This document shows, in pieces, positions 38,204-50,906 of a stretch of 53,104 nt of DNA (positions within the stretch are counted from its first letter, which is position 1; each line of letters opens with the position of its first letter). The stretch is from NCBI RefSeq assembly GCF_900188025.1, contig NZ_FZNO01000029.1, forward strand, positions 1 through 53,104. The letters are read 5' to 3'. The notes below the pieces were generated by a model, which searched no databases, was not told the origin of the DNA, and saw only the letters and a list, made by a program, of their open reading frames with translations. A program made the translations under genes and the position numbers. The DNA is from Blastococcus mobilis (GTDB taxonomy: Bacteria; Actinomycetota; Actinomycetes; Mycobacteriales; Geodermatophilaceae).

Positions 38204-39868
38204 CTACTTCGACCTGAAGAACCCGGGCCTCGGCCGGTCGTAACGAGGGACGGTGACGCTCGGCGTGGTGCCGTCTGTTGCGGGGTGCTCGGCGAGACCG
38301 TGACGCATCCCAAGCGATGCGAGCGCGCCGGAGTGGGCCGATGTTCCGGACGAAGGCCGAGCAGGTGAGCGCGTGGGAGGCGGCGCTGCCGGCGGAGGTG
38401 GTGCGACTTCCCGAGGAGTTGGCCCGGGTGGATGCGCTGCTGGATGACCCGGTGTTCTTCGCGCCGTTCGCGCCGTTCTTCGATCCGCGGCTGGGCCGGC
38501 CGTCGACGCCGATGGAGACCTACCTGCGGCTGATGTTTCTGAAGTTCCGGTACCGGCTGGGCTACGAGACTCTGTGCCGGGAGGTCGCGGATTCGATCAG
38601 CTGGCGCCGGTTCTGCCGGATCCCGCTGGACGGGCAAGTGCCGCATCCGACGACGCTGATGAAGCTGACCACCCGCTGCGGGACGGCTGCGGTCGACGGA
38701 TGCAACGAGGCGCTGCTGGCCAAGGCCGCTGAGGCCAAACTCCTTCGCACGGCGCGGCTGCGCGCCGACACCACCGTCGTGCCGGCCGACGTGGCCTATC
38801 CGACCGACTCCGGTTTGCTGGCCCGCGCGGTGCGCCGGATCGCGGCGACCGGTCGACGGATCCAGGCCGCCGGCGGAGCAACCCGCACCCGGCTCCGTGA
38901 TCGCAGCCGGGCAGCCGGTCGCCGCGCGCACGGCATCGCCGCGAAGCTGCGGCTGCGCGGCGCTCAGCATCGTGACGAGGCGCAGGCGACCGTGCGGCGG
39001 ATCACCGGGGAGCTGGCCGAGTTGGCCGAGCGGGCCGCCGCCGACGCCGAGCGGCTGCTGGCCAACGCCCGCCGCGCGCTGCGCCGGGCTCGGGCGAAGG
39101 CCGCCGATCGGGTGGCCGCCGGTCGACGGAACGCGGCCGCGGGCCGGCGGCGGGGCCGGCTGCGGCGTGCGGTCGATGACCTCGCCGAACTGCTGACGGC
39201 CACCCGCAAGATCGCCGCGCAGACCCGGCAACGCCTCGCCGGAACCACGCCCGACGGCGCTACTCGTCGGGTCAGCCTGCACGACCCCGACGCCCGTCCG
39301 ATCGCCAAGGGACGGCTGGGTCGCCCGGTCGAGTTTGGCTACAAGGCCCAGGTCCTCGACAACGTCGACGGCGTGGTCCTCGACCACACCGTCGACCGGG
39401 GCAATCCGCCCGACGCGCCGCAGCTGGCGCCCGCGGTGGCACGGGTGATCGCCCGTACGCGGCGGCGGCCGCGCACGGTCACCGCCGACCGTGGCTACGG
39501 CGAGGCCCGTGTCGAGAACGAGCTGCACGAGCTCGGCATCCGCACGGTCGTCATCCCACGCAAGAGCAACCCCGGCAAGGCCCGGCAATCCGTCGAACAT
39601 CGCCCTGCCTTCCGCAAGACCATCAAGTGGCGCACCGGATGCGAGGGTCGGATCAGCAGCCTCAAACGCGGATACGGCTGGAACCGCACCCGACTCGACG
39701 GCCTGGAAGGAGCCCGGATCTGGACCGGCCAGGCCGTCCTCGCCCACAACCTCGTCAAGATCGGCGCCCTCGCCCGTTGACCGGCCCAGGGTCGACACCC
39801 ATCAGAGCCACTCGAGACGACAAGATCACTGACCTCATCGACCCGAGGAGTTCTTCAGGTCGAAGTAG
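38204..39868 (+). mobile_element. Complete insertion sequence, 1665 bp, flanked by CTAG
   Basis: Terminal inverted repeats of 19 bp are perfect: CTACTTCGACCTGAAGAAC at 38204-38222 and its reverse complement at 39850-39868. CTAG lies immediately outside both ends (38200-38203 and 39869-39872) as a 4-bp target duplication or a palindromic target. One intact transposase gene fills the element. The features fit an IS1182/ISNCY- or IS5-like DDE element; no exact name can be given. It separates a DUF3987 fragment from a LysR remnant. Confidence 0.92.
38341..39780 (+). CDS. DDE transposase (DUF772 / IS1182-ISNCY-like)
   Basis: A 479-residue transposase. The N-terminal DUF772-like domain reads LGRPSTPMETYLRLMFLKFR and SISWRRFCRIPLDG. 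The DDE residues are placed at LRADTTVV (Asp), TVTADRGYGEA (Asp) and GCEGRISSLKRGYGWNRTRL (Glu, with the R/K-rich C1 signature). A long Arg/Ala-rich insertion (~residues 170-300) lies between the first and second Asp. ATG 38341 is used; upstream in-frame codons are not conserved. It appears intact and potentially active. Confidence 0.92.
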   Translation: MFRTKAEQVSAWEAALPAEVVRLPEELARVDALLDDPVFFAPFAPFFDPRLGRPSTPMETYLRLMFLKFRYRLGYETLCREVADSISWRRFCRIPLDGQVPHPTTLMKLTTRCGTAAVDGCNEALLAKAAEAKLLRTARLRADTTVVPADVAYPTDSGLLARAVRRIAATGRRIQAAGGATRTRLRDRSRAAGRRAHGIAAKLRLRGAQHRDEAQATVRRITGELAELAERAAADAERLLANARRALRRARAKAADRVAAGRRNAAAGRRRGRLRRAVDDLAELLTATRKIAAQTRQRLAGTTPDGATRRVSLHDPDARPIAKGRLGRPVEFGYKAQVLDNVDGVVLDHTVDRGNPPDAPQLAPAVARVIARTRRRPRTVTADRGYGEARVENELHELGIRTVVIPRKSNPGKARQSVEHRPAFRKTIKWRTGCEGRISSLKRGYGWNRTRLDGLEGARIWTGQAVLAHNLVKIGALAR

Positions 39869-40361: not shown

Positions 40362-40376
40362 TGACACTGGTTATCG
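40362..40376. promoter_or_regulatory. Weak Zur-like box upstream of the pacL-ctpC pair
   Basis: TGACACTGGTTATCG matches the pattern GARAAYGGTTSTC derived from the two better boxes in this window at 10 of 13 positions. It is 72 bases before the DUF1490 gene. An upstream TTGACA (40282-40287) could be a -35. The match is suggestive only; CtpC-type pumps normally export metal, so Zur would have to act as activator or the site belongs to another metal sensor. Confidence 0.35.
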
Positions 40377-40447
40377 TCACCGTCGGGAAGCAGAACCCGC
40401 GCCCGAGGCGTCGCGCCACCACGACCTCCCGCTGAGTGAGGAGCCTC

Positions 40448-40765
40448 ATGTCCGAGTCGAACGACAAGCGCCGTGGTCGCGGGGCCCGCCGGGTGCTGCG
40501 CAAGGCCGCCGGCACGGTGGGCACGGGGGTCGTCGGGGTCCTCGTCGTCCGCGCCGCCGAGGGCAGCGAGCCGGGCAGCCTGCCGCGGAAGGTCGCCGTC
40601 CGGGTGACCCGCTGGGGCATTCTGGGCTCCCGGCGCGCCGAGGCTGCCGTGGAGAAGGCCCGCCTGGCGGCGGGGGACATCCGCGCCCAGGCCTACGCCG
40701 ACCTCGGCGAGCCCGCTCCGCCCCCGGCGGCGCGGACCGCCGACCGGCACGACCACAGCCACTGA
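40448..40765 (+). CDS. DUF1490 / PacL-like metal-efflux partner
   Basis: A 105-residue protein. A weakly hydrophobic N-terminal helix (AAGTVGTGVVGVLVVRAAEG, ~residues 19-38) is followed by RKVAVRVTRWGILGSRRAEA, the DUF1490 core, and a His/Asp-rich tail TADRHDHSH that looks metal-binding. In Mycobacterium tuberculosis the analogous small protein (PacL1) precedes ctpC and scaffolds the pump while binding zinc. GAGGAG precedes ATG 40448; the stop shares one base with the ATPase start. Confidence 0.75.
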   Translation: MSESNDKRRGRGARRVLRKAAGTVGTGVVGVLVVRAAEGSEPGSLPRKVAVRVTRWGILGSRRAEAAVEKARLAAGDIRAQAYADLGEPAPPPAARTADRHDHSH

Positions 40766-42933
40766 TGGGCGCGGTGGTCGTCGTCGCCGACGCCGGTGGC
40801 CGGGTGCGGCTGTCCGCGCCGTGGCTGATCGGCTCCCCCTCCCTGGCGGTCCTCGTCGAGGACGCGGTCGAGGAGGTCCCCGGGGTGCTGGCGGTCCAGG
40901 GCTTTCCGGTGACCGGGCACGTCGTGGTCTGGCTGGAGCCCGACGCCGACCGGGACAAGATGCTCGAGGTCGTCACCGGAGTGGCCGAGCGCCCGGCCGA
41001 CGCACCGGTCGCGCGGCGGCCCCGCTCGGCCGACGTGGCCAACGGCGACCTCGTCCGCATCGCGGTGGGCGGCGCGGCGCTGGCCCTGCTCGGCGTCCGC
41101 CGGTACGGGCTGGGCCGTCCGCCGGTGCTGTCCGGGCGCAGCCGGTTCGCCGTCTCGGTGGTCACCCTGCTCACCGGCTATCCCTTCGCGAAGGGCGCCG
41201 TGGGCACGCTCGCCGGCCGGCGCAGCGCGGGCACCGACGCACTGGTCACCGCCGCCACCGTCGCCAGCCTGCTGCTGCGGGAGAACGTGGTCGCCCTCAC
41301 CGTGCTCTGGCTGCTCAACATCGGCGAGTGGCTGCAGACCCTGACCCTGCGGCGCACCCGGCGGGCGATCTCCGCGCTGCTCACCGGCACCGACACCACT
41401 GCCTGGGTACGGCTGGCCGACGGCACGGAGCTGCAGGTGGACCTCGGCCGGTTGCAGGTCGGCGACCTGGTGGTGGTGCACGAGCAGGTCGCCATCCCCG
41501 TGGACGGCGAGGTGGTCGAGGGCACCGGCGTGGTCGACCAGGCCGCGATCACCGGCGAACCGCTCCCGGTGGCCCTCGCCCCGGGCGACCGGGTGCACGC
41601 CGGGTCGGTGAACCTGCGCGGCCGGCTCGTCGTGCGCGCCTCGGCCACCGGCGAGGACACCGCCATCGGCCGGATCATCGCCCGGGTCGAGCGGGCCCAG
41701 GACGACCGGGCGCCCATCCAGACCGTGGGCGACGCCTTCTCCGGTCGCTTCGTGCCCGCGTCCTTCGCGCTGGCCGGGCTCACCTGGCTGGCGACCGGCG
41801 ACGTCCGCCGGGCGATGACGATGCTGCTCATCGCCTGCCCGTGCGCCGTGGGGCTGTCGACCCCGACCGCGGTCAGCGCCGCCATCGGCAACGGCGCCTC
41901 CCGCGGGGTGCTGATCAAGGGTGGGGCGCACCTGGAGGCGGCCGGACGGGTGGACGCCGTCGTCTTCGACAAGACCGGCACGCTCACCGTGGGCCGCCCG
42001 GTGGTCACCAACATCGTGTCCTTCTCCGAGGCGTGGACGCCTGAACGGGTGCTCGGCTACGCCGCGAGCTCCGAGATCCACTCGCGGCATCCGCTGGCTC
42101 AGGCGGTGATCCGCTCCACCGAGGAGCGGCACGTATTCATCCCGCCGCACGAGGAGTGCGAGGTGCTACTGGGCCTGGGCATGCGCACCCAGGCCGACGG
42201 GCGGGTCCTGTTGCTGGGCAGCGAGGCGCTGATGGCCGCCGAGGGCGTGCCGGTGGGCGAGGAGGCGCAGGGCTGGCTGACCACGCTGCGCGGGGTCGCC
42301 GAGACCCCGCTGCTGCTCGCGGTGGACGGCGAGCTGGTGGGGCTGGTCAGCCTCCGCGACGAGATCCGTCCCGAGGCCCGCGAGGTCCTCGACACCCTCC
42401 GTGCGACCGGGGTCCGCCGGGTGGTCATGCTCACCGGCGACCACGTCGACACCGCCTCCGCCGTCGCCGCCGAACTCGGGATCGATGACTGGCGCGCCGA
42501 GGTGCTTCCCGAGGTCAAGCAGGACGTCGTCACGGCCCTGCAGCAGGCCGGGCACACCGTCGCGGTGATCGGGGACGGCACCAACGACGCCCCCGCACTG
42601 GCAGCGGCCGACATCGGGATCGCGATGGGCGTGTCGGGCACCGACGTGGCCGTGGAGACCGCCGACGTCGCCCTCGTCGGCGACAACCTGCGCCACCTGC
42701 TGGACCTCCGCGACCTCGGCGGCCGGACGCTGGACGTCGTCCGGCAGAACTACGCCCTCTCCATCGCGGTCAACGGGATCGGTCTGCTGGTCGGCGCCGG
42801 CGGAGCACTGTCCCCCGTGATGGCGGCGGTCCTGCACAACGCGTCCTCGCTCGCGGTCGCCGCCAACTCCGCGCGGCTGGTCCGCTACCACGGTCGGACG
42901 GGAGGACCCGGGACGGCGGCACCTGCCGGATAG
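40765..42933 (+). CDS. CtpC-like P1B-type metal ATPase
   Basis: A 722-residue heavy-metal P-type ATPase. The membrane metal motif is ACPCAVGLSTPTA, the phosphorylation site is DKTGTLTVG, the actuator loop is AAITGEPLP, the HP motif is SRHPLAQAV, and the hinge is VIGDGTNDAPALAAADIGIA. There is no CxxC heavy-metal-associated domain at the N-terminus; the first ~85 residues resemble the degenerate HMA region of CtpC. Mycobacterial CtpC exports Zn/Mn with a PacL partner, matching the neighbour here. ATG 40765 overlaps the upstream stop (TGATG). Confidence 0.88.
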   Translation: MGAVVVVADAGGRVRLSAPWLIGSPSLAVLVEDAVEEVPGVLAVQGFPVTGHVVVWLEPDADRDKMLEVVTGVAERPADAPVARRPRSADVANGDLVRIAVGGAALALLGVRRYGLGRPPVLSGRSRFAVSVVTLLTGYPFAKGAVGTLAGRRSAGTDALVTAATVASLLLRENVVALTVLWLLNIGEWLQTLTLRRTRRAISALLTGTDTTAWVRLADGTELQVDLGRLQVGDLVVVHEQVAIPVDGEVVEGTGVVDQAAITGEPLPVALAPGDRVHAGSVNLRGRLVVRASATGEDTAIGRIIARVERAQDDRAPIQTVGDAFSGRFVPASFALAGLTWLATGDVRRAMTMLLIACPCAVGLSTPTAVSAAIGNGASRGVLIKGGAHLEAAGRVDAVVFDKTGTLTVGRPVVTNIVSFSEAWTPERVLGYAASSEIHSRHPLAQAVIRSTEERHVFIPPHEECEVLLGLGMRTQADGRVLLLGSEALMAAEGVPVGEEAQGWLTTLRGVAETPLLLAVDGELVGLVSLRDEIRPEAREVLDTLRATGVRRVVMLTGDHVDTASAVAAELGIDDWRAEVLPEVKQDVVTALQQAGHTVAVIGDGTNDAPALAAADIGIAMGVSGTDVAVETADVALVGDNLRHLLDLRDLGGRTLDVVRQNYALSIAVNGIGLLVGAGGALSPVMAAVLHNASSLAVAANSARLVRYHGRTGGPGTAAPAG

Positions 42934-42960
42934 CCGCTCACCCTGGACGGGACACGCGTG

Positions 42961-42975
42961 CGAGAATGGTTCTCA
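42961..42975. promoter_or_regulatory. Zur-like operator at the znuA start
   Basis: CGAGAATGGTTCTCA, with GAGAA/TTCTC arms around TGG, spans the likely -10 (GAGAAT, 42962-42967) and reaches the A of the ATG at 42975. With the box at 49187-49201 it defines GARAAYGGTTSTC. Its placement over a leaderless promoter is a simple repression geometry, and znuA and zur lie in the same operon. Confidence 0.7.
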
Positions 42976-43970
42976 TGGCCATCTCGACGATCCGTACCCG
43001 CAGCACGATTGCAGCCGCCGCAGCGACCGCAGGCACCCTCCTCCTCGCCGGATGCGGCGGTAGCGCAGGGAGCAGCGGGTCCACGGAGGAGGCGGCGGAG
43101 GGGCCGGGCGGCCTGACCGTGGTCGCCGGCTTCTACCCGCTGGAGTGGGCCGCGGCCCGCGTGGGTGGCGACCGCGTCGAGGTCTCCTCGCTCACCCCGC
43201 CCGGAGCCGAGGCCCACGACCTGGAACTGACGCCGCAGGACGTCGCGGCCATGTCCGAGGCCGACCTGCTCGTCTACCTGGAGGGCTTTCAGCCCGCGCT
43301 GGACGAGGCCGCGGAGAACGAGGCCGCCGACACCGCGTGGAACGCCGGGCAGGCGGCCGACCTCTCCCTGACCGCGGAGCCCGGCCACGAGGGCGAGACC
43401 GCGGAGGAGCACGCCGAGCACGCCGGCGAGGGCGAAGAGGGCGAGGAGCCCGTCGACCCGCACTTCTGGCTCGATCCCACCCGCTTGGCCGCGGTCGGTG
43501 ACGCGCTGGCCGCTGAGCTGAGCGAGGCCGACCCCGACGGCGCGGCCGCCTACGAGGAGAACGCCGCCGCGCTGCGCGCGGACCTCGAGTCACTGGACGC
43601 CGAGATGCAGGCCGGCCTGGCCAACTGCGCGGTCCACACCCTGGTCACCAGCCACGACGCGTTCGGCTACCTGGCGAACCGCTACGGTTTCGAGGTGGTC
43701 GGCATCAGCGGGCTGAGCCCGTCGCAGGAGCCGGAGCCGGCCCAGCTGGCCGAGATCGCGACGCTCGTGCGTGAGCGCGGGGTGACCACCGTCTACACGG
43801 AGACCCTCGTCGACCCCGCGGTCGCCGAGACGGTCGCCGCCGAAGCCGGGGTGCGCACCGCCGTCCTCGACCCGCTCGAGGGACTGACCGACGAGTCGGC
43901 CGGGGAGGACTACCTCGAGGTGATGCGGGCCAACCTCGCCACGCTGCAGGAGGGCCAGTCCTGCTCATGA
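42975..43970 (+). CDS. znuA: Zinc ABC transporter substrate-binding lipoprotein
   Basis: A 331-residue lipoprotein of the cluster A-I metal-binding family. The signal peptide ends in the lipobox LLLAGC (Cys near residue 26). The candidate metal ligands are in EAHDLELTP, DPHFWLDPTR, TSHDAFGYLA and the late ETLVDP segment. A central acidic/His stretch (GHEGETAEEHAEHAGEGEE) is the usual zinc-loading loop. ATG 42975 is preferred as a leaderless start; ATG 42966 is possible. First gene of znuA-znuC-znuB-zur. Confidence 0.92.
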   Translation: MAISTIRTRSTIAAAAATAGTLLLAGCGGSAGSSGSTEEAAEGPGGLTVVAGFYPLEWAAARVGGDRVEVSSLTPPGAEAHDLELTPQDVAAMSEADLLVYLEGFQPALDEAAENEAADTAWNAGQAADLSLTAEPGHEGETAEEHAEHAGEGEEGEEPVDPHFWLDPTRLAAVGDALAAELSEADPDGAAAYEENAAALRADLESLDAEMQAGLANCAVHTLVTSHDAFGYLANRYGFEVVGISGLSPSQEPEPAQLAEIATLVRERGVTTVYTETLVDPAVAETVAAEAGVRTAVLDPLEGLTDESAGEDYLEVMRANLATLQEGQSCS

Positions 43971-44779
43971 GCGGCACGCCCGCCGGGGACGCGCTCCGGC
44001 TCCGCGACGCCAGCATTGGCTACGGCGACGTGGCCATCGTGCAGGGCGTGGACCTGACCGTGGCGCACGGCGAAGCGGTCGCCGTCCTGGGGTCCAACGG
44101 GTCGGGCAAGACCACGCTCGCCCGGGGCCTGCTCGGACTCGCAGCCGTGCTCGGCGGCGAGGTCCAGGTGCTCGGCGCCCCCGTCGGGCGGCTGCGCGAG
44201 CGGGGACGGATCGGCTACGTGCCGCAGCGGCACACGGTCAGCGGGGCCGTTCCGGCCACGGTGCGCGAGGTGGTCGGCGTCGGCCGGCTCGCGCGGCACG
44301 GGCTGCTCGGCCGGCTGCGCCCGGCCGACCGGGCCGCGGTCGCCGACGCCGTGACCGCGGTCGGGCTGGCCGACCGGATCGGCGACCCGGTCGCCTCGCT
44401 CTCCGGCGGCCAGCAGCGCCGCGTGCTGGTCGCCCGCGCGTTGGCGGCCGAGCCGGAGCTGCTGGTCATGGACGAGCCCACCGCCGGGGTGGACGCCGCC
44501 AGCCAGGAGGCGCTGGCCGCGGTCCTGGCCGACGTGTCCACCGCAGGCACGACACTGGTGGTCGTGACCCACGAGATCGGACCGCTGAGCGGAGTGCTGT
44601 CCCGGGCGGTCGTGGTGGACCACGGCCGCATCCGGTACGACGGCCCACTGGCCGGCGCCCAGCCCACGGCAGGGGGGCACTGCCACCCCGATCAGCCGGC
44701 AGGGCCGGCAGCCGGGTACCGGTTCGACCAGCCCCGCGTGACGATCGACGTGGCGGCGGCCCGCAACGGAGGCCACTGA
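43967..44779 (+). CDS. znuC: Zinc ABC transporter ATP-binding protein
   Basis: A 270-residue ATPase. The Walker A is GSNGSGKTT, the Q-loop YVPQRHT, the signature LSGGQQRRVLVARAL, the Walker B LLVMDEPTAGVD, and the H-loop VVTHEIG. The C-terminal tail contains GGHCHPDQ. It overlaps znuA by ATGA and is one base from znuB. Confidence 0.94.
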   Translation: MSGTPAGDALRLRDASIGYGDVAIVQGVDLTVAHGEAVAVLGSNGSGKTTLARGLLGLAAVLGGEVQVLGAPVGRLRERGRIGYVPQRHTVSGAVPATVREVVGVGRLARHGLLGRLRPADRAAVADAVTAVGLADRIGDPVASLSGGQQRRVLVARALAAEPELLVMDEPTAGVDAASQEALAAVLADVSTAGTTLVVVTHEIGPLSGVLSRAVVVDHGRIRYDGPLAGAQPTAGGHCHPDQPAGPAAGYRFDQPRVTIDVAAARNGGH

Positions 44780-44780
44780 C

Positions 44781-45809
44781 GTGGAAATCCTCGACTACGG
44801 GTTCATGCAGCGGGCACTGCTGGCCTCGCTCATGGTGGGCCTGGTGGCCCCGGCGGTCGGCGTCTTCCTCGTGCAGCGGCGGCTCTCGCTGCTCGGGGAC
44901 GGCCTCGGCCATGTCGCCCTCACCGGCGTGGCGATCGGCGTCCTCACCTCCACCGCCCCGGTCGGCACCGCGCTGGTCGCCGCGGTGCTCGGCGCGGTCC
45001 TCATCGAACTCGTCCGGGCACGCGGACGGACCAGCGGGGACGTCGCGCTCGCCGTCCTCTTCTACGGCGGCATCGCCGGCGGCGTGGTCCTGCTGTCGCT
45101 GGCCCCGCGCGGGCAGGCCACCAACCTCGATGCCTACCTGTTCGGCGCCATCACCACGACCAGCGCCGCCGACGTCGCGGTGTTCGCCGCCATCACCGTC
45201 GTGGTGCTCGGCGTCGTGTGGCTGCTCGGCCAACGGCTCTACGCGGTCAGCGACGACGAGGAGTACGCCCGTGCCGTGGGGCTGCCGGTGCTGGCGCTCA
45301 ACGTCGTCCTGGCCGTACTGGTCGCCTCCACCGTCGTGCTCTCGATGCGGGTGGTCGGCCTGCTGCTGATCAGCGCGCTGATGATCGTGCCCAGCGCGAT
45401 CGCCCAGCTGCTGGCCCGCAGCTTCCGCCAGACGGTGTACCTGGCCTGCGGGATCGGCCTGGTCACCAGCGTCGCCGGCACGAGCGCCTCGTACTACGCG
45501 GGCACCCCGTCGGGCGGCACGATCGTGCTGCTGGCCATCGCGCTGTTCCTGGTGGTGACCGCGGCCGTCGCCGTCCGCGAGGCCACGGCGCGGCGCCGCC
45601 ACCAGTGGCAGGCCGAGGTGCACGCCGCCCACCCGCACGAGCACGGCGAGGGCTGCGGCCACCCGGCGGTGGCGCACGGGGACCATGTCGACTACCACCA
45701 CGACGGGCACCTGCACGCGCCGCACCGGACCGGCGCCGGCGTGCACTACGACGAGCACGGCGAGCATCTGGCCTCCGCCCCGGTCGCCGGGAAGGCGGGG
45801 CGACCGTGA
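44781..45809 (+). CDS. znuB: Zinc ABC transporter permease with His-rich tail
   Basis: A 342-residue ABC-3 family permease. About eight hydrophobic helices fill residues ~10-265, with RRLSLLGDGLGHVALTGVA and MRVVGLLLISALMIVPSAIA as family signatures. The C-terminal ~70 residues are cytosolic and carry about 17 His with Asp/Glu (HPHEHGEGCGH, DYHHDGHLHAPH, HYDEHGEH). Most ZnuB proteins end soon after the last helix, so this tail may bind or buffer zinc on entry. GTG 44781 is the start; it overlaps zur by 4 bp. Confidence 0.93.
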   Translation: MEILDYGFMQRALLASLMVGLVAPAVGVFLVQRRLSLLGDGLGHVALTGVAIGVLTSTAPVGTALVAAVLGAVLIELVRARGRTSGDVALAVLFYGGIAGGVVLLSLAPRGQATNLDAYLFGAITTTSAADVAVFAAITVVVLGVVWLLGQRLYAVSDDEEYARAVGLPVLALNVVLAVLVASTVVLSMRVVGLLLISALMIVPSAIAQLLARSFRQTVYLACGIGLVTSVAGTSASYYAGTPSGGTIVLLAIALFLVVTAAVAVREATARRRHQWQAEVHAAHPHEHGEGCGHPAVAHGDHVDYHHDGHLHAPHRTGAGVHYDEHGEHLASAPVAGKAGRP

Positions 45810-46222
45810 CCCATCCCGAACCGGCGGGGGTGCCGGGCCGCCGGAACACCCGGCAGCGCAGCGCCGTGCTGACCCTGCTCGAGGAGCTCGACGACTTCCG
45901 CAGCGCTCAGGACCTGCACGCGATGCTTCGCGCCCGCGGCGACGCCGTGGGGCTGGCGACGGTCTACCGGACGCTGCAGGCGCTGGTCGACGACGGGCAG
46001 GTCGACCTCCTGCGCAGCGGCGACGGGGAGGCCGTCTACCGGCGCTGCTCGCCGGTGCACCACCACCACCTGGTCTGCCGCTCCTGCGGCCGCACCGTCG
46101 AGGTCGCCGACCCGCCGGTCGAGCGCTGGGCGGCCAAGATCGCCGCCGAGCACGGCTTCGCCGACGTCCAGCACCAGCTGGAGGTCTTCGGCACCTGCGG
46201 CGCCTGCAGCACCGACCGCTGA
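45806..46222 (+). CDS. zur: Fur-family regulator, probable Zur
   Basis: A 138-residue Fur-family protein. The winged helix spans ~residues 10-85 (RNTRQRSAVLTLLEELDDF, LATVYRTLQALVDDGQVD). The metal region includes VHHHHLVCRSCG and FGTCGAC, two CxxC pairs for the structural zinc, plus the sensory HHHH cluster. Position as the last gene of the znu operon, overlapping znuB by GTGA, makes zinc the likely signal and the operon autoregulated through the box at 42961. Confidence 0.9.
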   Translation: MTHPEPAGVPGRRNTRQRSAVLTLLEELDDFRSAQDLHAMLRARGDAVGLATVYRTLQALVDDGQVDLLRSGDGEAVYRRCSPVHHHHLVCRSCGRTVEVADPPVERWAAKIAAEHGFADVQHQLEVFGTCGACSTDR

Positions 46223-46269
46223 GGACACCCGCACACGAGCACGGACGGCCGGGGCTCTCCTCGCCCCAG

Positions 46270-46998
46270 TCAGCCCTGGTAGGTGTTGGCCGGCGCCTCG
46301 ATCGGGATCACCGAGCGCGGGGTGATGACGGCCTCGGGGTAGCCGCTCCTGGGGTGCGGTCGAGGTGGCGCCCAGGAGCCGATGACCTCGACCCACTGGT
46401 CGGCGACGAGGTCACCCTGCTCGCCGTCGACGGCGACGGTGAACGCCACGGCGTCGGCCGCGCAGCAGTTGATCCCGATGCGGGAGACGTACCAGCCGCC
46501 ACCTTCCCGCGGGGTCACGAAGCCGGTCAGCCGGACGAGTCGACCGTGGAGCGCACGGGTGTCCGCGGCCAGCGCGTGCAGCGAGTAGTTGAGCAGGGTC
46601 ATGGTGCGGTGGTCCTCGCCGGGGTCGTTCGCGCCGATGCCGAGGGCCTGGTGGTCCTCGGGGACGACGACCTGCTGGGCCTGGCGGTCGGCGGTGAACG
46701 GACCGAGCGCGGGCGGGGCGACGAGCAGCACCACCGCCACGGGCAGGAGCAGCAGCCAGGCCACCCGCGGGGCGGCATGGCCGTGGTCGTGCCCTCCGGC
46801 CGCGGCTGCCTCCGAATGGGGGCGGGACCGCTCGCGGACCACGCCGATGAGTCCCAGCGCCAGGAGGACGACAGAGGCCAGCAGCAGCAACGGCCGGAAG
46901 CCGGGCTGGACGTAGGCGAGGTGGGCGTCGCCGAGCGCGACGCTCAGGGTGACGCCGCCGAGGAGAAGGAGCACCAAGTACTGGGTCAGTCGGTCCAC
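46270..46998 (-). CDS. TIGR03943-family membrane protein (YcgQ-like)
   Basis: A 242-residue protein with N-terminal hydrophobic segments (YLVLLLLGGVTLSVALG, LLLLASVVLLALGLIGVV, AWLLLLPVAVVLLVAPP) and a C-terminal soluble domain containing RLTGFVTPREGGGWYVSRI and NCCAADA. A GGHDHGHA loop lies between the helices. This family is regularly paired with a DUF318-type permease, here the next gene upstream (frameshifted), and such pairs are often in zinc regulons. It converges on zur. GTG 46998 is the start. Confidence 0.85.
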   Translation of the reverse strand: MDRLTQYLVLLLLGGVTLSVALGDAHLAYVQPGFRPLLLLASVVLLALGLIGVVRERSRPHSEAAAAGGHDHGHAAPRVAWLLLLPVAVVLLVAPPALGPFTADRQAQQVVVPEDHQALGIGANDPGEDHRTMTLLNYSLHALAADTRALHGRLVRLTGFVTPREGGGWYVSRIGINCCAADAVAFTVAVDGEQGDLVADQWVEVIGSWAPPRPHPRSGYPEAVITPRSVIPIEAPANTYQG

Positions 46999-47008
46999 GG
47001 CCGGCTCC

Positions 47009-48031
47009 TCACCACACGACCCACGCGACGGCGAGCGCCGAAAGGCCCGCGACGACGAGGGTCACCGGCGCGAACCGCAGCGCGAACCGGCGTCCGAAGG
47101 TCCCCGACTGCAGCGCGATCAGCTTGACGTCGACGACCGGCCCCACCACCAGGAAGACCAGCCGCGAGGTGAGGCTGAAGGACGTCAGGCTGGCGGCCAC
47201 GAAGGCGTCGGCCTCCGAGCAGATGGCCAGGACGACCGCAAGGAACGCAGCACCACGACGGACAGGACAGGAGAGTCCGCGACCGAGTCCAACCACGCCC
47301 GGGGGACGGCGACGTTCAACGTCGCGGCGGTGAGCCCGCCGACCACCAGGAAGCCACCGGCGTGCAGCAGGTCGTGCCCTGCGGCGTCCCGAAAGACCTC
47401 GAGGCGGCTTGCCCCCGGCCGGCCACCGGACCGACGGGGCAGCCGCAACCACTCCCCCCGCCCGTAGCCGGTCCACAGCCACCCCATGACGACGGCCACG
47501 AGCAGGGAGGCGGCGAAGCGGGCGGCCACCATGAACGGCTCGTCAGAGAAGGCGACGGCGGTGGCGACGAGCACCACCGGGTTGATCGCCGGCGCTGAGA
47601 GCAGGAACGCCAGCGCGGCCGCCGGCGCGACCCCGCGACGCACCAGGCTCCCAGCGACCGGCACGGAAGCGCACTCACAGCCGGGCAGCACCGCACCGCT
47701 CAGCCCCGCCACAGGAACAGCGAGCGCCGGCCGCCGTGGCAGGGCCCGCTGGAAGAACGACGGCGGGACGAAGGCACTGATGGCCGCGGACAGCAGCACC
47801 CCGATCCCCAGGAACGGCAGCGCCTGCAGGCAGACCCGCGACGAAGATCGTCGACCAGGCCTGCACGGCGGGATCGTCGAAGAAGCCGGGTCGCAGCCAG
47901 CGGAGCACCAAGATGAGGACCAGGAGGCCCACGAACACGTCGGTCGCCGCCCGGGATCGACGACGGCCAGAAGCCGGTGGCACCAGCTCGGCGGGCGGAA
48001 CGGCCGGCGGACCAGTCGAGGAACCGGACAC
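47009..48031 (-). pseudogene. DUF318/UPF0718-type permease with two frameshifts
   Basis: Partner permease of the TIGR03943 protein. The N-terminal part (DVFVGLLVLILVLRWLRPG, AWSTIFVA) is in one frame. At 47835-47837 an extra G shifts the match to another frame (VCLQALPFLGIGVLL, GAVLPGCECASVPVAGS, FLLSAPAINPVVL). A missing base near 47247 then returns it to the first frame (FLAVVLAICSEADAFVA, LVVGPVVDVKLIAL). The two indels compensate, so about 195 residues are out of frame. All expected family motifs survive, suggesting recent inactivation or sequence error. GTG 48031 after GGGGGAG is the likely start. Confidence 0.8.
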
Positions 48032-48147
48032 GCGCACTCCCCCACTGCGACATGGCTGCCACCGACCGACCGACACCGTCTCATGCCGGTCATCTCCCCA
48101 GGAGGCAGGCCGAGGCCGGCGGCGTGGCACACCGCCACCCCCGACCG

Positions 48148-48180
48148 GGTCGCCGAGGCGCGGCGGGCACCTCGGCGACC
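48148..48180 (-). terminator. Hairpin after rpsR
   Basis: An 11-bp perfect stem GGTCGCCGAGG/CCTCGGCGACC with an 11-base loop, 8 bases past the S18 stop in the direction of transcription. No T-run follows. It separates the ribosomal-protein operon from the permease gene and may be a terminator or attenuator. Confidence 0.65.
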
Positions 48181-48187
48181 GGCCCGC

Positions 48188-48406
48188 TCAGCGCCGCGTC
48201 GTCGGGTACGGCAGGAGCGCCATCTCCCGTGCGTTCTTGATCGCGCGGGCGACTCGGCGGTGCTCGTCGGCGTCGAGGCCGGTGACCCGGCGTGCGCGGA
48301 TCTTGCCGCGGTCGGAGATGAACGTGCGCAGCAGCGCGACGTCGTGGTAGCTGACCGGCCCGTCTAGCCGAGGCCTGCGCCGCGGGCGACCGGGGCGCGG
48401 GCTCAC
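48188..48406 (-). CDS. rpsR: Ribosomal protein S18, zinc-free paralogue
   Basis: A 72-residue S18. [30 protein letters not shown] and [16 protein letters not shown] are typical. There is no cysteine, so this is the C-minus form that replaces a zinc-binding S18 under zinc shortage. The GTG start overlaps the rpsN stop by 4 bp. It is the last gene of the rpmB-rpmG-rpsN-rpsR operon. Confidence 0.94.
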
Positions 48407-48705
48407 CAGCTGGCCTTGCGGATGCCGGGCAGCTGGCCGTCGTGGGCCATCTGCCGGAAGCGGACGCGGGAGAGCCCGAACTTCCGCAGGTGGCCGCGGG
48501 GGCGGCCATCGGCCGCGTCGCGGTTGCGCAGCCGGGTGGGGCTGGCGTCGCGGGGCAGCCGCTGCAGCGCGTGCTGCGCGTCGGCGCGCTCCTCGGGGGT
48601 GGCAGCAGCGCGGACGGCGGCCTTCAGCGCCGTCCGTCGTTCGGCGTACCGGGCGACCACCTCCCTGCGCTGCTGGTCCCGGGCGATCTTCGAGGTCTTG
48701 GCCAT
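48403..48705 (-). CDS. rpsN: Ribosomal protein S14, zinc-free paralogue
   Basis: A 100-residue S14 of the long type: [20 protein letters not shown], then [20 protein letters not shown] and [15 protein letters not shown]. The short zinc-binding S14 has two CxxC pairs; none is present here. One base separates it from rpmG. Confidence 0.95.
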
Positions 48706-48706
48706 G

Positions 48707-48874
48707 TCAGCGTTCCTCCCGGAAGTCGACGTGCCGCCGGACGATCGGGTCGTACTTGCGCAGCACGAGGCGGTCGGGGTCGTTGCGCCGGTTCTTGCGG
48801 GTCACGTACGTGTAGCCGGTGCCGGCCGTGGACTTGAGCCGGACGATCGGCCGGATGTCGGTGGCGCGCGCCAT
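48707..48874 (-). CDS. rpmG: Ribosomal protein L33, zinc-free paralogue
   Basis: A 55-residue L33: [40 protein letters not shown] and [15 protein letters not shown]. It lacks the CxxC pairs of the zinc form. Its ATG shares one base with the rpmB stop (TGATG), so translation is coupled. Confidence 0.95.
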
Positions 48875-49140
48875 CAGCTGCTCCGGCCCGGGCCGAGCCG
48901 GCGGCGCACGTCGGGGTCGGTGGCGCGCAGCCGGGCCACCACCGCCTCGATGCCCTGGGCGTCGATGGTCTTGATGCCCTTCACCGACACGGTGAGCCGG
49001 ATCCACCGGTTCTCGGCGGGCAGGAAGAAGCGCTTGCGCTGCAGGTTGGGGTCGAAGCGGCGGGACGTGCGCCGGTGGGAGTGGCTGACGGCCTTGCCGA
49101 AGCCGGGCCGGCGGCCGGTCACCTCGCAGTAGGTGGCCAC
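48874..49140 (-). CDS. rpmB: Ribosomal protein L28, zinc-free paralogue
   Basis: An 88-residue L28: [38 protein letters not shown] and [15 protein letters not shown]. Only one Cys is present, so the two CxxC pairs of the zinc form are absent. GTG 49140 has GGAGG 9 bases upstream. First gene of the minus-strand arm, transcribed from the shared control region at about 49150-49220. Confidence 0.94.
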
Positions 49141-49186
49141 GGTCGAACACCTCCAGGGTGGGGTCTGCGGACGTTCACAGCCTAGA

Positions 49187-49205
49187 TGAAAACGGTTGTC
49201 GTTTT
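49187..49205. promoter_or_regulatory. Zur-like operator between rpmB and the MRF-like gene
   Basis: TGAAAACGGTTGTCG (49187-49201) agrees with the znuA box at GA, AA, GGTT and TC positions, giving GARAAYGGTTSTC. An overlapping perfect inverted repeat, AAAACG-GTTGT-CGTTTT, spans 49189-49205. It is the only AT-rich block in the 81-base divergent gap and could control both arms. Confidence 0.7.
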
Positions 49206-49221
49206 TGTTTAGGGTGGGGGC

Positions 49222-50490
49222 ATGACGGATTCCCGCACGCCCCTCGTGCTTCTCAGCGGCCTGCACCGGCGGCTCGCCGCCCAGGTCGGCACAGCACTGC
49301 TGGACCGGCCGGGCACCGTGGTCGTCCACCACGACGTCAGCCAGCTCGGGCAGGGCGCCGTTCTCCGGACCCAGCGGCACCGCACCGGGAACGCCGTCGC
49401 CGAGCAGGCCACCGCCGTCGAGCTGGCTCACGGCTGCCTGTCCTGCACCCTGCGGCTGGACCTGCTGCCGCTGCTGCGCGCCCTGGCCCGGCGGAACGAC
49501 GTGACCCGGGTCGTCCTCCACCTGGATCCGGCGCTCGAGCCCGAGCACCTGTGCTGGTCGGTCGCCAACGTGCTGCTGGACGACGAGACCGGCGGCACGC
49601 CGGAGACCGCCGGCGACTGGGTGCGGGTGGAGGGCGTCCTGGCGGTGGTCGAGGCAGCGAGCTGGCTGGACGACGTCACCGGCGGCGACGACCTCGCCGA
49701 CCGGGGACTGGCCGCCACGCTCGATGACGACCGCACCCTGGCCCAGGTCGCGCTAAGCCAGGTGGCCTTCGCCGACGCCGTGGTGCTGGCCGGCCCGCCG
49801 GCCGACGCCTGGGCCGGCGCCCGGCTCGACGCCGTCCTCGACCGGCTGGTCCCCGGGGTCCCGCGCGCCGACGTCCGCGTGCACCCGGACCGCCTGCTGA
49901 CGGCCGTTCCCGCCGGCGCCCGCCGCGGGCGGATCTCCACCGCGCACGACCCCCTGCTGGCGGGCCAGCCCCCGCTGGGCGAGGACTGCGGCGTGCAGCT
50001 GGTCCGGTTCAGCCCGGACCGGCCGCTGCACCCCGGCCGGCTGCATGAGGCCCTCGACCTCCTCCTCGACGGGGTCGTCTGCAGCCGCGGCCGGCTGTGG
50101 CTGGCCAGCCAGCACGACCGGGCCGTCTGGCTGGAGTCCGCCGGTCAGGGACTGCGGGTCGGGGACGCCGGCCCGTGGCTGGCGACGCTGGACGACGCCG
50201 CCTGGGCCGACGTCGACCCGCAGCGACGGGTGGCCGCCGCCCTGCGCTGGGACCCGGTCCACGGCGACCGGCACACCGAACTGGTCGTCCTCACCCACCG
50301 GCAGCCCGCCCTGGCGATCACCGCCGCCCTGCACGCGGCCGCCCTCACCGACGAGGAGTGGACCGCCGGCCCGGACGCGTGGCGCCGCTACCCGGACCCC
50401 TTCGGCACCTGGCACGAGGACCCGTGCGAGGCATCCAGCCCCACCGACGACAGCAGCACCCACGTGACCAACCGAGAGGAGCGCTCCTGA
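49222..50490 (+). CDS. COG0523/CobW-like MRF protein (hibernation-factor recruitment)
   Basis: A 422-residue COG0523 family protein. The N-terminal segment [19 protein letters not shown] is where COG0523 GTPases have the GxxxxGK[ST] P-loop, but Gly-Lys-Thr is absent. The metal motif reads HGCLSCTL (Cys72, Cys75) instead of CxCC. The C-terminal CobW_C domain (~265-400) has [20 protein letters not shown] and GRLWLASQ. Mycobacteria encode a similar protein (Mrf) beside the zinc-free ribosomal proteins, where it recruits hibernation factor to ribosomes in low zinc. ATG 49222 follows GGGTGGGGG. It overlaps rpmE by one base. Confidence 0.85.
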
Positions 50491-50741
50491 TGCGCCGAGG
50501 AATCCACCCCGAGTACCGCACTGTCGTCTTCCGCGACGCCGCCAGCGGGGCCACCTACCGCACCCGGTCCACGGTGGCCACAGACCAGACCATCGAGCTG
50601 GACGGCGAGACCTACCCGTTGGTGATCGTGGACATCAGCGCGGCCTCGCACCCCTTCTGGACCGGCAACCAGCGGGTGCTGGACACCGCCGGCCGGGTCG
50701 AGCGCTTCCTCCAGCGCTACGGCACCCGCGGCCGGGGCTGA
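50490..50741 (+). CDS. rpmE: Ribosomal protein L31, type B (zinc-free)
   Basis: An 83-residue type B L31: [40 protein letters not shown] and [11 protein letters not shown]. It has no Cys; the zinc form carries CxxC. ATG 50490 overlaps the MRF-like stop (TGATG). Second gene of the plus-strand arm. Confidence 0.96.
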
Positions 50742-50744
50742 CCG

Positions 50745-50906
50745 ATGGCGGTCCCCAAGCGGCGCACGTCCCGGTCCCGGACCCGGTCCCGCCGCGCTCG
50801 GTGGAAGGCCAGCCCGGTCCCGCTCGTGCGGGTGCGGATCGACGGCGTCGAGCAGCTCGTGCCGGCCCGCCTGCGGAAGGCCGCCGAGCGGGGGTTCCTG
50901 CGGTGA
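50745..50906 (+). CDS. rpmF: Ribosomal protein L32, zinc-free paralogue
   Basis: A 53-residue L32: MAVPKRRTSRSRTRSRRARW, then LVPARLRKAAERGFLR. The C-terminal CxxC pair of the zinc form is missing. It lies three bases after rpmE. Its stop overlaps GTG 50903 by 4 bp, so a further gene originally followed in the operon. Confidence 0.92.
   Translation: MAVPKRRTSRSRTRSRRARWKASPVPLVRVRIDGVEQLVPARLRKAAERGFLR

Follow-up and report, generated by a model that had tools for sequence, protein, structure and literature searches.

In Mycobacterium smegmatis, the stretch MSMEG_6045-6071 gathers znuABC, alternative ribosomal proteins (altRPs), MRF and MSMEG_6058/6059, the homologues of Rv3270/Rv3269, into one cluster (PMC7174638). 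The CtpC and PacL1 homologues are reported to rise 17.6-fold and 15.2-fold with TPEN and 9.2-fold and 13.4-fold in a zur mutant (PMC7174638); a published precedent thus exists for contiguous genes of zinc import, ribosome replacement and an exporter-type pair that are under Zur. MRF is reported to bring the hibernation factor MPY to ribosomes (PMC7174638), and deletion of msmeg_6059-6058 is reported to leave zinc resistance unchanged (PMC9374683). COG0523 genes under Zur regulation are found clustered beside znuABC, zur and zinc-enzyme paralogues (PMC2770081), ctpV and Rv0968 go up in zinc-limited M. tuberculosis in a report whose main text does not name ctpC (PMC8121289), and the accessible text of PMC13043812 does not mention Zur. 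Here we analyse a 53,104-nucleotide stretch of Blastococcus mobilis (Geodermatophilaceae; NZ_FZNO01000029.1, positions 1 to 53,104, hereafter the window), which is the whole of contig C82 in a genome of 5.09 Mb in 88 contigs and carries zinc-scarcity genes next to the transporter pair PacL-CtpC. An initial annotation had singled out the contiguity of import, export and ribosome replacement as what deserves attention, but this had already been recorded for the M. smegmatis cluster (PMC7174638).

The locus is probably a complete actinobacterial Zur-controlled zinc-scarcity cluster of an already known type. Profile searches (Pfam/NCBIfam) place the zinc-scarcity genes between 40448 and 50906, within 10.5 kb, and bear out the earlier identification of znuACB-zur, six zinc-free ribosomal-protein genes and MRF. 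What it adds to the known picture is comparative evidence, which suggests that PacL-CtpC and a pair made of a TIGR03943 protein and a permease belong to the zinc-shortage set of Geodermatophilaceae. As a whole, the data are quite probably best explained by a Zur-controlled zinc-scarcity cluster with PacL-CtpC in the same repressed set. In the titles and abstract openings among the matches listed by a literature search, which is thin on subscription journals, no Zur box at pacL-ctpC is described. The elements on which this explanation turns are the following.

40362 to 40376, plus strand: candidate Zur box TGACACTGGTTATCG before pacL-ctpC, weak in this genome, with 2 mismatches to TGANAAYGRTTNTCA
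40448 to 40765, plus strand: pacL (DUF1490), PF07371 at E 1e-16, with the His-rich tail HDHSH
40765 to 42933, plus strand: ctpC-like P1B ATPase, PF00122/PF00702, TIGR01525 at 547.8 bits on a longer open frame, with CPC and HN motifs
42961 to 42975, plus strand: Zur box CGAGAATGGTTCTCA, abutting the znuA ATG at 42975 in a leaderless layout
49179 to 49184, minus strand: TAGGCT, a putative -10-like hexamer two bases from the next box, in the rpmB2 direction
49187 to 49201, plus strand: Zur box TGAAAACGGTTGTCG in the rpmB2/mrf divergent gap
49210 to 49215, plus strand: TAGGGT, a putative -10-like hexamer six bases before the mrf ATG, in a leaderless layout

The two boxes named in the initial annotation, at the start of znuA and in the rpmB2/mrf gap, are both present as 13-mers where it had placed them. 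They fit a 15-bp palindrome at target promoters, of the 7-1-7 type described for the actinobacterial Zur box (PMC6103462). A genome scan with the widened exact pattern GANAAYGRTTNTC finds 3 places in the 5.09 Mb, every one at zinc genes, against 0 for the reversed pattern; the widened pattern was drawn up with the two window boxes in view, and the third place, which opens a second znuACB-zur operon, is independent of them. The motif of the initial annotation taken with 3 mismatches is not enriched in the window (33 matches against 33.05 expected), and this would speak for the boxes being chance AT-rich look-alikes beside genes that are merely neighbours. Such an explanation is extremely improbable: the 3-to-0 genome count and the conservation across relatives contradict it, as do the matrix background and control windows given below. 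To judge from the spacing of box and ATG at znuA and of TAGGGT and ATG at mrf, both mRNAs may be leaderless.

Six other high-scoring places in the genome were inspected. Those on contigs C84, C56, C51 and C59 look coding by eye (60 bases on each side), one lies on C54, and the last is a site before the Cys-bearing rpmB (C63:38649-38663, L186, 14.9 bits). This last candidate was rejected as a Zur box, and is probably a chance match, since its palindrome is not kept in relatives: much of the genus has exactly the same word, which loses its symmetry in other members (6.8 bits in three) and in other genera (1.4, -0.3 and 2.2), and which occurs also in genomes without MRF (25 tried of 29 loci found, the start not being located in 2).

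Related clusters recur in Geodermatophilaceae. Across 112 genomes of the family, whose kinship is left uncorrected in the statistics, MRF is found in 26, and the 25 mrf neighbourhoods other than the window's own were fetched. The earlier proposal of an operator shared by znuACB-zur and the altRP/mrf promoter is supported there: a box lies upstream of mrf in all 25 relatives (26 of 26 with the window; 15.9 to 30.5 bits, scores that are not independent because 25 of the 26 boxes, 24 of them in fetched relatives, trained the matrix) and near the start of 16 of the 17 znuA genes scored, abutting or overlapping the start codon in the window and 9 relatives. The geometry is kept too. In the rpmB2 direction, TAnnnT follows the box after 2 to 3 bases in 25 of the 26 loci (chance about 0.7%), a count that takes in three where rpmB2 itself was not found (L035, L041, L056), and in 23 of the 23 where it was. 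L28 was detected by tblastn in 22 of the 25 fetched neighbourhoods, and znuA, znuC, znuB and zur lie together within about 7 kb of mrf in 9 of the 25 (L032, L036, L037, L039, L043, L047, L048, L049 and L053). Because arrangements vary among relatives, the parts of the cluster are best described as a loosely held module.

PacL, recognised by its DUF1490 domain, is present in 20 of the 112 genomes, 19 of which also have MRF; 7 have MRF without PacL and 85 have neither (Fisher 9e-15, for genomes that are not independent). PacL and MRF lie 3.5 to 30.6 kb apart in all 18 genomes that carry both on one contig, and in G089 they fall on separate contigs, both no more than 26 kb from the end of the contig. 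The His-rich tail of PacL is found in 20 of 20 family rows and the CPC and HN motifs of ctpC in 19, the sole exception being L039, whose possibly broken ctpC matches in two pieces. In this locus (genome G031), the pacL, ctpC, permease and TIGR03943 genes share a strand and look like an operon.

To score the pacL promoters, we used a matrix whose training set was made up of mrf and znuA boxes alone, and scanned the 300 bp in front of the DUF1490 match with a cut-off of 10 bits. A site reaches this level in 17 of the 20 genomes including the window, and the remaining three have aligned but weaker sites (G089 8.1, G100 7.4 and G065 6.6 bits). As background, 675,729 unique bases of these neighbourhoods hold 102 sites of at least 10 bits, of which 31 lie away from the listed genes; this is about 1.4% of 300-bp windows, and of these 31 sites at least 3 (L034, L043, L157) lie in front of permease genes. 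TAnnnT, a predicted promoter element, follows the pacL box after 1 to 2 bases in 17 of 20 (chance about 0.7%), the exceptions being G025, G031 and the window. Repression of pacL by Zur is predicted because this layout of box and hexamer resembles that of altRP promoters, which as a class are known targets of Zur repression; Zn-Zur would thus hold PacL-CtpC down, and an exporter-type transporter would be made in zinc shortage. Such evidence points in the direction opposite to zinc-induced expression of the pair. The initial annotation had the two genes right but placed them only alongside the regulated operons, and the relatives suggest that the same operator controls them.

Beyond the family set, named ctpC loci were drawn from a set of 80: L077-L121 and L147 were examined and the other 34 left out, L117 was left out for having no upstream sequence, and L077 and L078 repeat G082 and G076. 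The 43 named loci include L079, itself from Geodermatophilaceae. A pacL site of at least 13 bits between -300 and +45 occurs in 11 of these 43, against 32 of 2296 control windows. The box-bearing loci come from Williamsia, Millisia, Nocardioides, Tsukamurella, two Streptomyces and Streptomyces sp. NP160, and four mycobacteria, one of which is doubtful (the site of L093, at +25 and inside pacL, is nonetheless counted among the 11); the site of L100 is at +7 from an extrapolated start. The best three ctpC relatives of the window are two from Klenkia and one from Blastococcus (82% identity), and a CtpC tree, made from the 63 scored ctpC rows less 7 with stops or of short length, places the window with Geodermatophilaceae. 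A single clade of box-bearing CtpC was tried and rejected: the label needs 11 changes on this tree, against a mean of 18.9 for shuffled labels with 0 of 500 shuffles as low as 11, so that the boxes are clustered without forming one clade.

Several observations weigh against repression of PacL-CtpC by Zur. The pacL1 promoter of M. tuberculosis is reported to be zinc-induced (PMC9374683), and in M. smegmatis induction occurs without a Zur motif listed at MSMEG_6059, the pacL1 homologue (PMC7174638). As many as 32 of the 43 named loci have no site of at least 13 bits at pacL, and 21 of the 25 mycobacterial loci scored lack a pacL box. In M. deserti, altRP genes, mrf and the TIGR03943-permease pair all adjoin pacL, and despite the nearby mrf no box stands from -300 to +45; a 13.3-bit site is found only further inside pacL, upstream of its permease. 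Within the family, Blastococcus CPCC 205250 has no pacL box (0.9 bits) though mrf is near, and the site of G025 does not align in register with those of the other genomes. The pacL box of the window scores 12.0 bits, 23rd by matrix among 37 genome places with at most 2 mismatches, and lacks the TA of the -10-like hexamer. A box alone, moreover, does not fix the sign of control, since Zur of S. coelicolor activates an exporter (PMC5472717). Finally, the three hexamer-less pacL genes (G000, G025, G031) are all among the seven without a divergent permease.

This last point would suit an arrangement in which the box beside pacL serves the divergent permease-TIGR03943 pair alone and pacL-ctpC is a bystander. 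Permease loci, located with an intact relative as query, number 18 in the family, and 13 of them have an upstream site of at least 10 bits. Ten of these 13 sites are shared with a divergent pacL, the box being common to both genes, and a permease standing apart can own a box, as in L043 (20.0 bits), L157 (19.6 bits) and L034 (10.2 bits). Weaker upstream sites occur in L159 (8.1), L164 (7.4) and L165 (6.6 bits), and among the 18 loci none was found upstream of the permease in the window or L039, where it lies downstream in an apparent operon. Against this stand the seven genomes in which no divergent permease was found and the pacL site still reaches at least 10 bits (G000, G051, G061, G024, G093, G025 and G031), four of which (G051, G061, G024 and G093) also keep the hexamer in the pacL direction. 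We hold the bystander role of pacL-ctpC to be quite improbable.

The question of sign raises a further reading, in which pacL-ctpC is activated when zinc is high, polymerase being recruited by zinc-loaded Zur bound at the pacL box; a single type of regulator would then drive import and export in opposite directions. The precedent is zitB in S. coelicolor, with its Zur box upstream of the promoter (PMC5472717); CtpC and PacL resemble zinc exporters in their CPC and HN motifs and His tail, and Zur-activated effluxers are listed in a review (PMC6103462). The position of the box argues otherwise, since that of zitB lies upstream of the -35 element (PMC6103462, PMC5472717), whereas in 17 of 20 genomes a -10-like hexamer follows the pacL box after 1 to 2 bases, in an rpmB2-like layout. 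The M. smegmatis homologues, in addition, are reported to rise and not fall when zinc is chelated and when zur is mutated (PMC7174638). Activation of the pair by Zur is unlikely, and repression remains the reading that we follow below.

The TIGR03943-permease pair lies on the minus strand of the window, between zur and S18:

46270 to 46998, minus strand: TIGR03943 (DUF1980) protein, TIGR03943 at 144.5 bits over a cut-off of 88.8
about 47027 to 48138, minus strand: ArsP_1/DUF318-type permease, PF03773, frame-broken

Of the pair recognised in the initial annotation, the TIGR03943 member stands, scoring above its cut-off, but the partner permease is frame-broken in the assembly, and the window does not hold an intact pair. 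Compared with an intact relative, the permease matches in two different frames; inspection by eye puts its N-terminal portion in a further stretch that shares the frame of the C-terminal piece, and the gene is apparently broken at two places. It could be a decaying gene or an assembly error. Because of these breaks the pair probably does not work in the window, unless they are assembly errors. Lying downstream of S18, it could be transcribed with the altRP operon. The flank upstream of pacL, which in the loci of ten relatives carries the divergent permease, has an ISNCY-type transposase gene in the window (38278-39780). The placement of exporter and permease in the zinc-shortage set leans on relatives, since the window has a weak pacL box and a permease with a broken frame. 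Judged by titles, no literature tying TIGR03943, DUF1980, ycgQ or UPF0703 to zinc was found, nor did the literature search return a paper combining any two of TIGR03943, Zur, DUF1980 and DUF318.

The remaining genes of the cluster are these:

42966 or 42975 (two possible starts) to 43970, plus strand: znuA, PF01297 at E 7e-83
43967 to 44779, plus strand: znuC, PF00005
44781 to 45809, plus strand: znuB, PF00950, with a His-rich C-terminal tail read from the sequence
45806 to 46222, plus strand: zur (FUR family), PF01475
48188 to 48406, minus strand: rpsR2, zinc-free S18, PF01084, 0 Cys
48403 to 48705, minus strand: rpsN2, zinc-free S14, PF00253, 0 Cys; CxxC paralogue at C85:144926
48707 to 48874, minus strand: rpmG2, zinc-free L33, PF00471, 0 Cys; Cys-bearing paralogue at C85:101040
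48874 to 49140, minus strand: rpmB2, L28 with a single Cys and a GTG start, PF00830; CxxC paralogue at C63:38678
49222 to 50490, plus strand: mrf, ribosome-hibernation-factor-recruiting GTPase, NF047431 at 536.6 bits over a cut-off of 375
50490 to 50743, plus strand: rpmE2, zinc-free L31, PF01197, 0 Cys; Cys-bearing paralogue at C63:162563
50745 to 50906, plus strand: rpmF2, zinc-free L32, PF01783, 0 Cys

The coding regions of pacL and ctpC overlap, those of znuA-znuC-znuB-zur overlap or abut, and from the divergent gap S18-S14-L33-L28 run leftward and mrf-L31-L32 rightward. The zinc-ligand cysteines are lost, no cysteine being left in S18, S14, L33, L31 or L32 and one in L28; Cys-bearing paralogues stand elsewhere in the genome for four of the six (S14, L31, L33 and L28), the search having covered these four. 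The window P1B ATPase exceeds the cut-offs of the heavy-metal, cadmium-type and copper-type profiles alike, and is called CtpC here because it is paired with PacL and has the CPC and HN motifs. The two genes have the make-up of a PacL-CtpC platform, a DUF1490 protein with a His-rich tail and a CPC/HN P1B ATPase in one operon. The histidine-rich tail of ZnuB (45600-45809) may bind metal. For MRF, a role in recruiting MPY is assumed by analogy, from the family name and the published work (PMC7174638).

The best solved relatives of the window Zur are 2o03 'FurB' (E 7.8e-53) and 3mwm/7vo0 (E 1.3e-51). The initial annotation supposed one Zur in control of both operons, which the genome does not support, since it has three Zur-type genes, the products of the other two being 74% and 64% identical to the window Zur. 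The former belongs to the second znuACB-zur operon (C65:~55500-58774, L001), in which a box of the same kind (27.6 bits) abuts the ATG of znuA (PF01297), followed by znuC, znuB and the second zur (C65:55516); the latter is encoded at C65:141287-141658. Where a family genome has one Zur match, that match is in many cases 60-68% identical to the window's.

The model rests directly on the genes, the boxes with their conservation and geometry, the linkage, and the Cys-bearing paralogues for four of the six ribosomal proteins; from these we infer Zur binding, the direction of control, the Zur paralogue that acts and the purpose of the transporter. When zinc is plentiful, Zn-Zur would occupy three 15-bp boxes, one where znuA starts, one between rpmB2 and mrf and, more weakly in this genome, one at pacL-ctpC, and block transcription. 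As zinc falls, Zur would leave the boxes, ZnuACB would import zinc, the zinc-free L28, L33, S14, S18, L31 and L32 would substitute for the Cys-bearing proteins and so free zinc, and MRF would help to park ribosomes during the shortage. With PacL-CtpC in the same repressed set, a transporter of zinc-exporter type would be made in zinc shortage; its likeliest purpose would be to guard against a surge of zinc on resupply, at a time of full ZnuACB production, or to remove other metals admitted by the derepressed importers.

For a wider statement, predicted from sequence comparison, we see about even chances: that PacL-CtpC in Geodermatophilaceae and scattered other actinobacteria is a zinc-starvation transporter, repressed directly by Zn-Zur and co-inherited with zinc-free ribosomal proteins, and not a detoxifier of zinc excess; that it left this control in most mycobacteria (in M. 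tuberculosis, which was not part of the scan, it answers zinc excess); and that the TIGR03943-permease pair is a further part of the starvation response. If true, membership in an exporter family would not tell a response to excess from a response to shortage, and the TIGR03943-permease pair would gain a functional lead. The window offers a non-mycobacterial actinobacterium with a whole zinc-starvation programme in one place, and it supplies a testable rule and a candidate operator for a little-discussed line of the M. smegmatis expression table, in which zinc-exporter homologues go up under zinc starvation.

The likeness to known systems is partial in each case. CztA of C. diphtheriae is likewise a zinc-tolerance efflux gene with verified Zur sites that is raised in a zur mutant, but it is of the COG1230 cation-efflux type and not a P-ATPase, and the expression array did not respond to added zinc (PMC6711530). 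The S. coelicolor Zur regulon shares the actinobacterial Zur box and the repression of znuA and altRPs, and differs in its Zur-controlled exporter, the CDF (cation diffusion facilitator) protein ZitB, whose activating box lies upstream of the promoter (PMC5472717, PMC6103462). PacL1-CtpC of M. tuberculosis has the same DUF1490 partner with a His tail and the same CPC/HN P1B ATPase, with a zinc-induced promoter and a role in zinc resistance there (PMC9374683). In M. smegmatis, ZnuABC, the altRPs S18, S14, L33, L28 and L31, MRF and PacL1/CtpC are clustered as they are here, and are induced by TPEN and by zur deletion; that cluster also carries further transporters, MspD (a porin) and a second CobW, and its zur lies elsewhere, in an smtB-zur operon (PMC7174638). 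The Blastococcus locus, unlike that of M. smegmatis, has znuACB-zur in one operon, a pacL box that is kept in most relatives, and a TIGR03943-permease pair, its permease broken.

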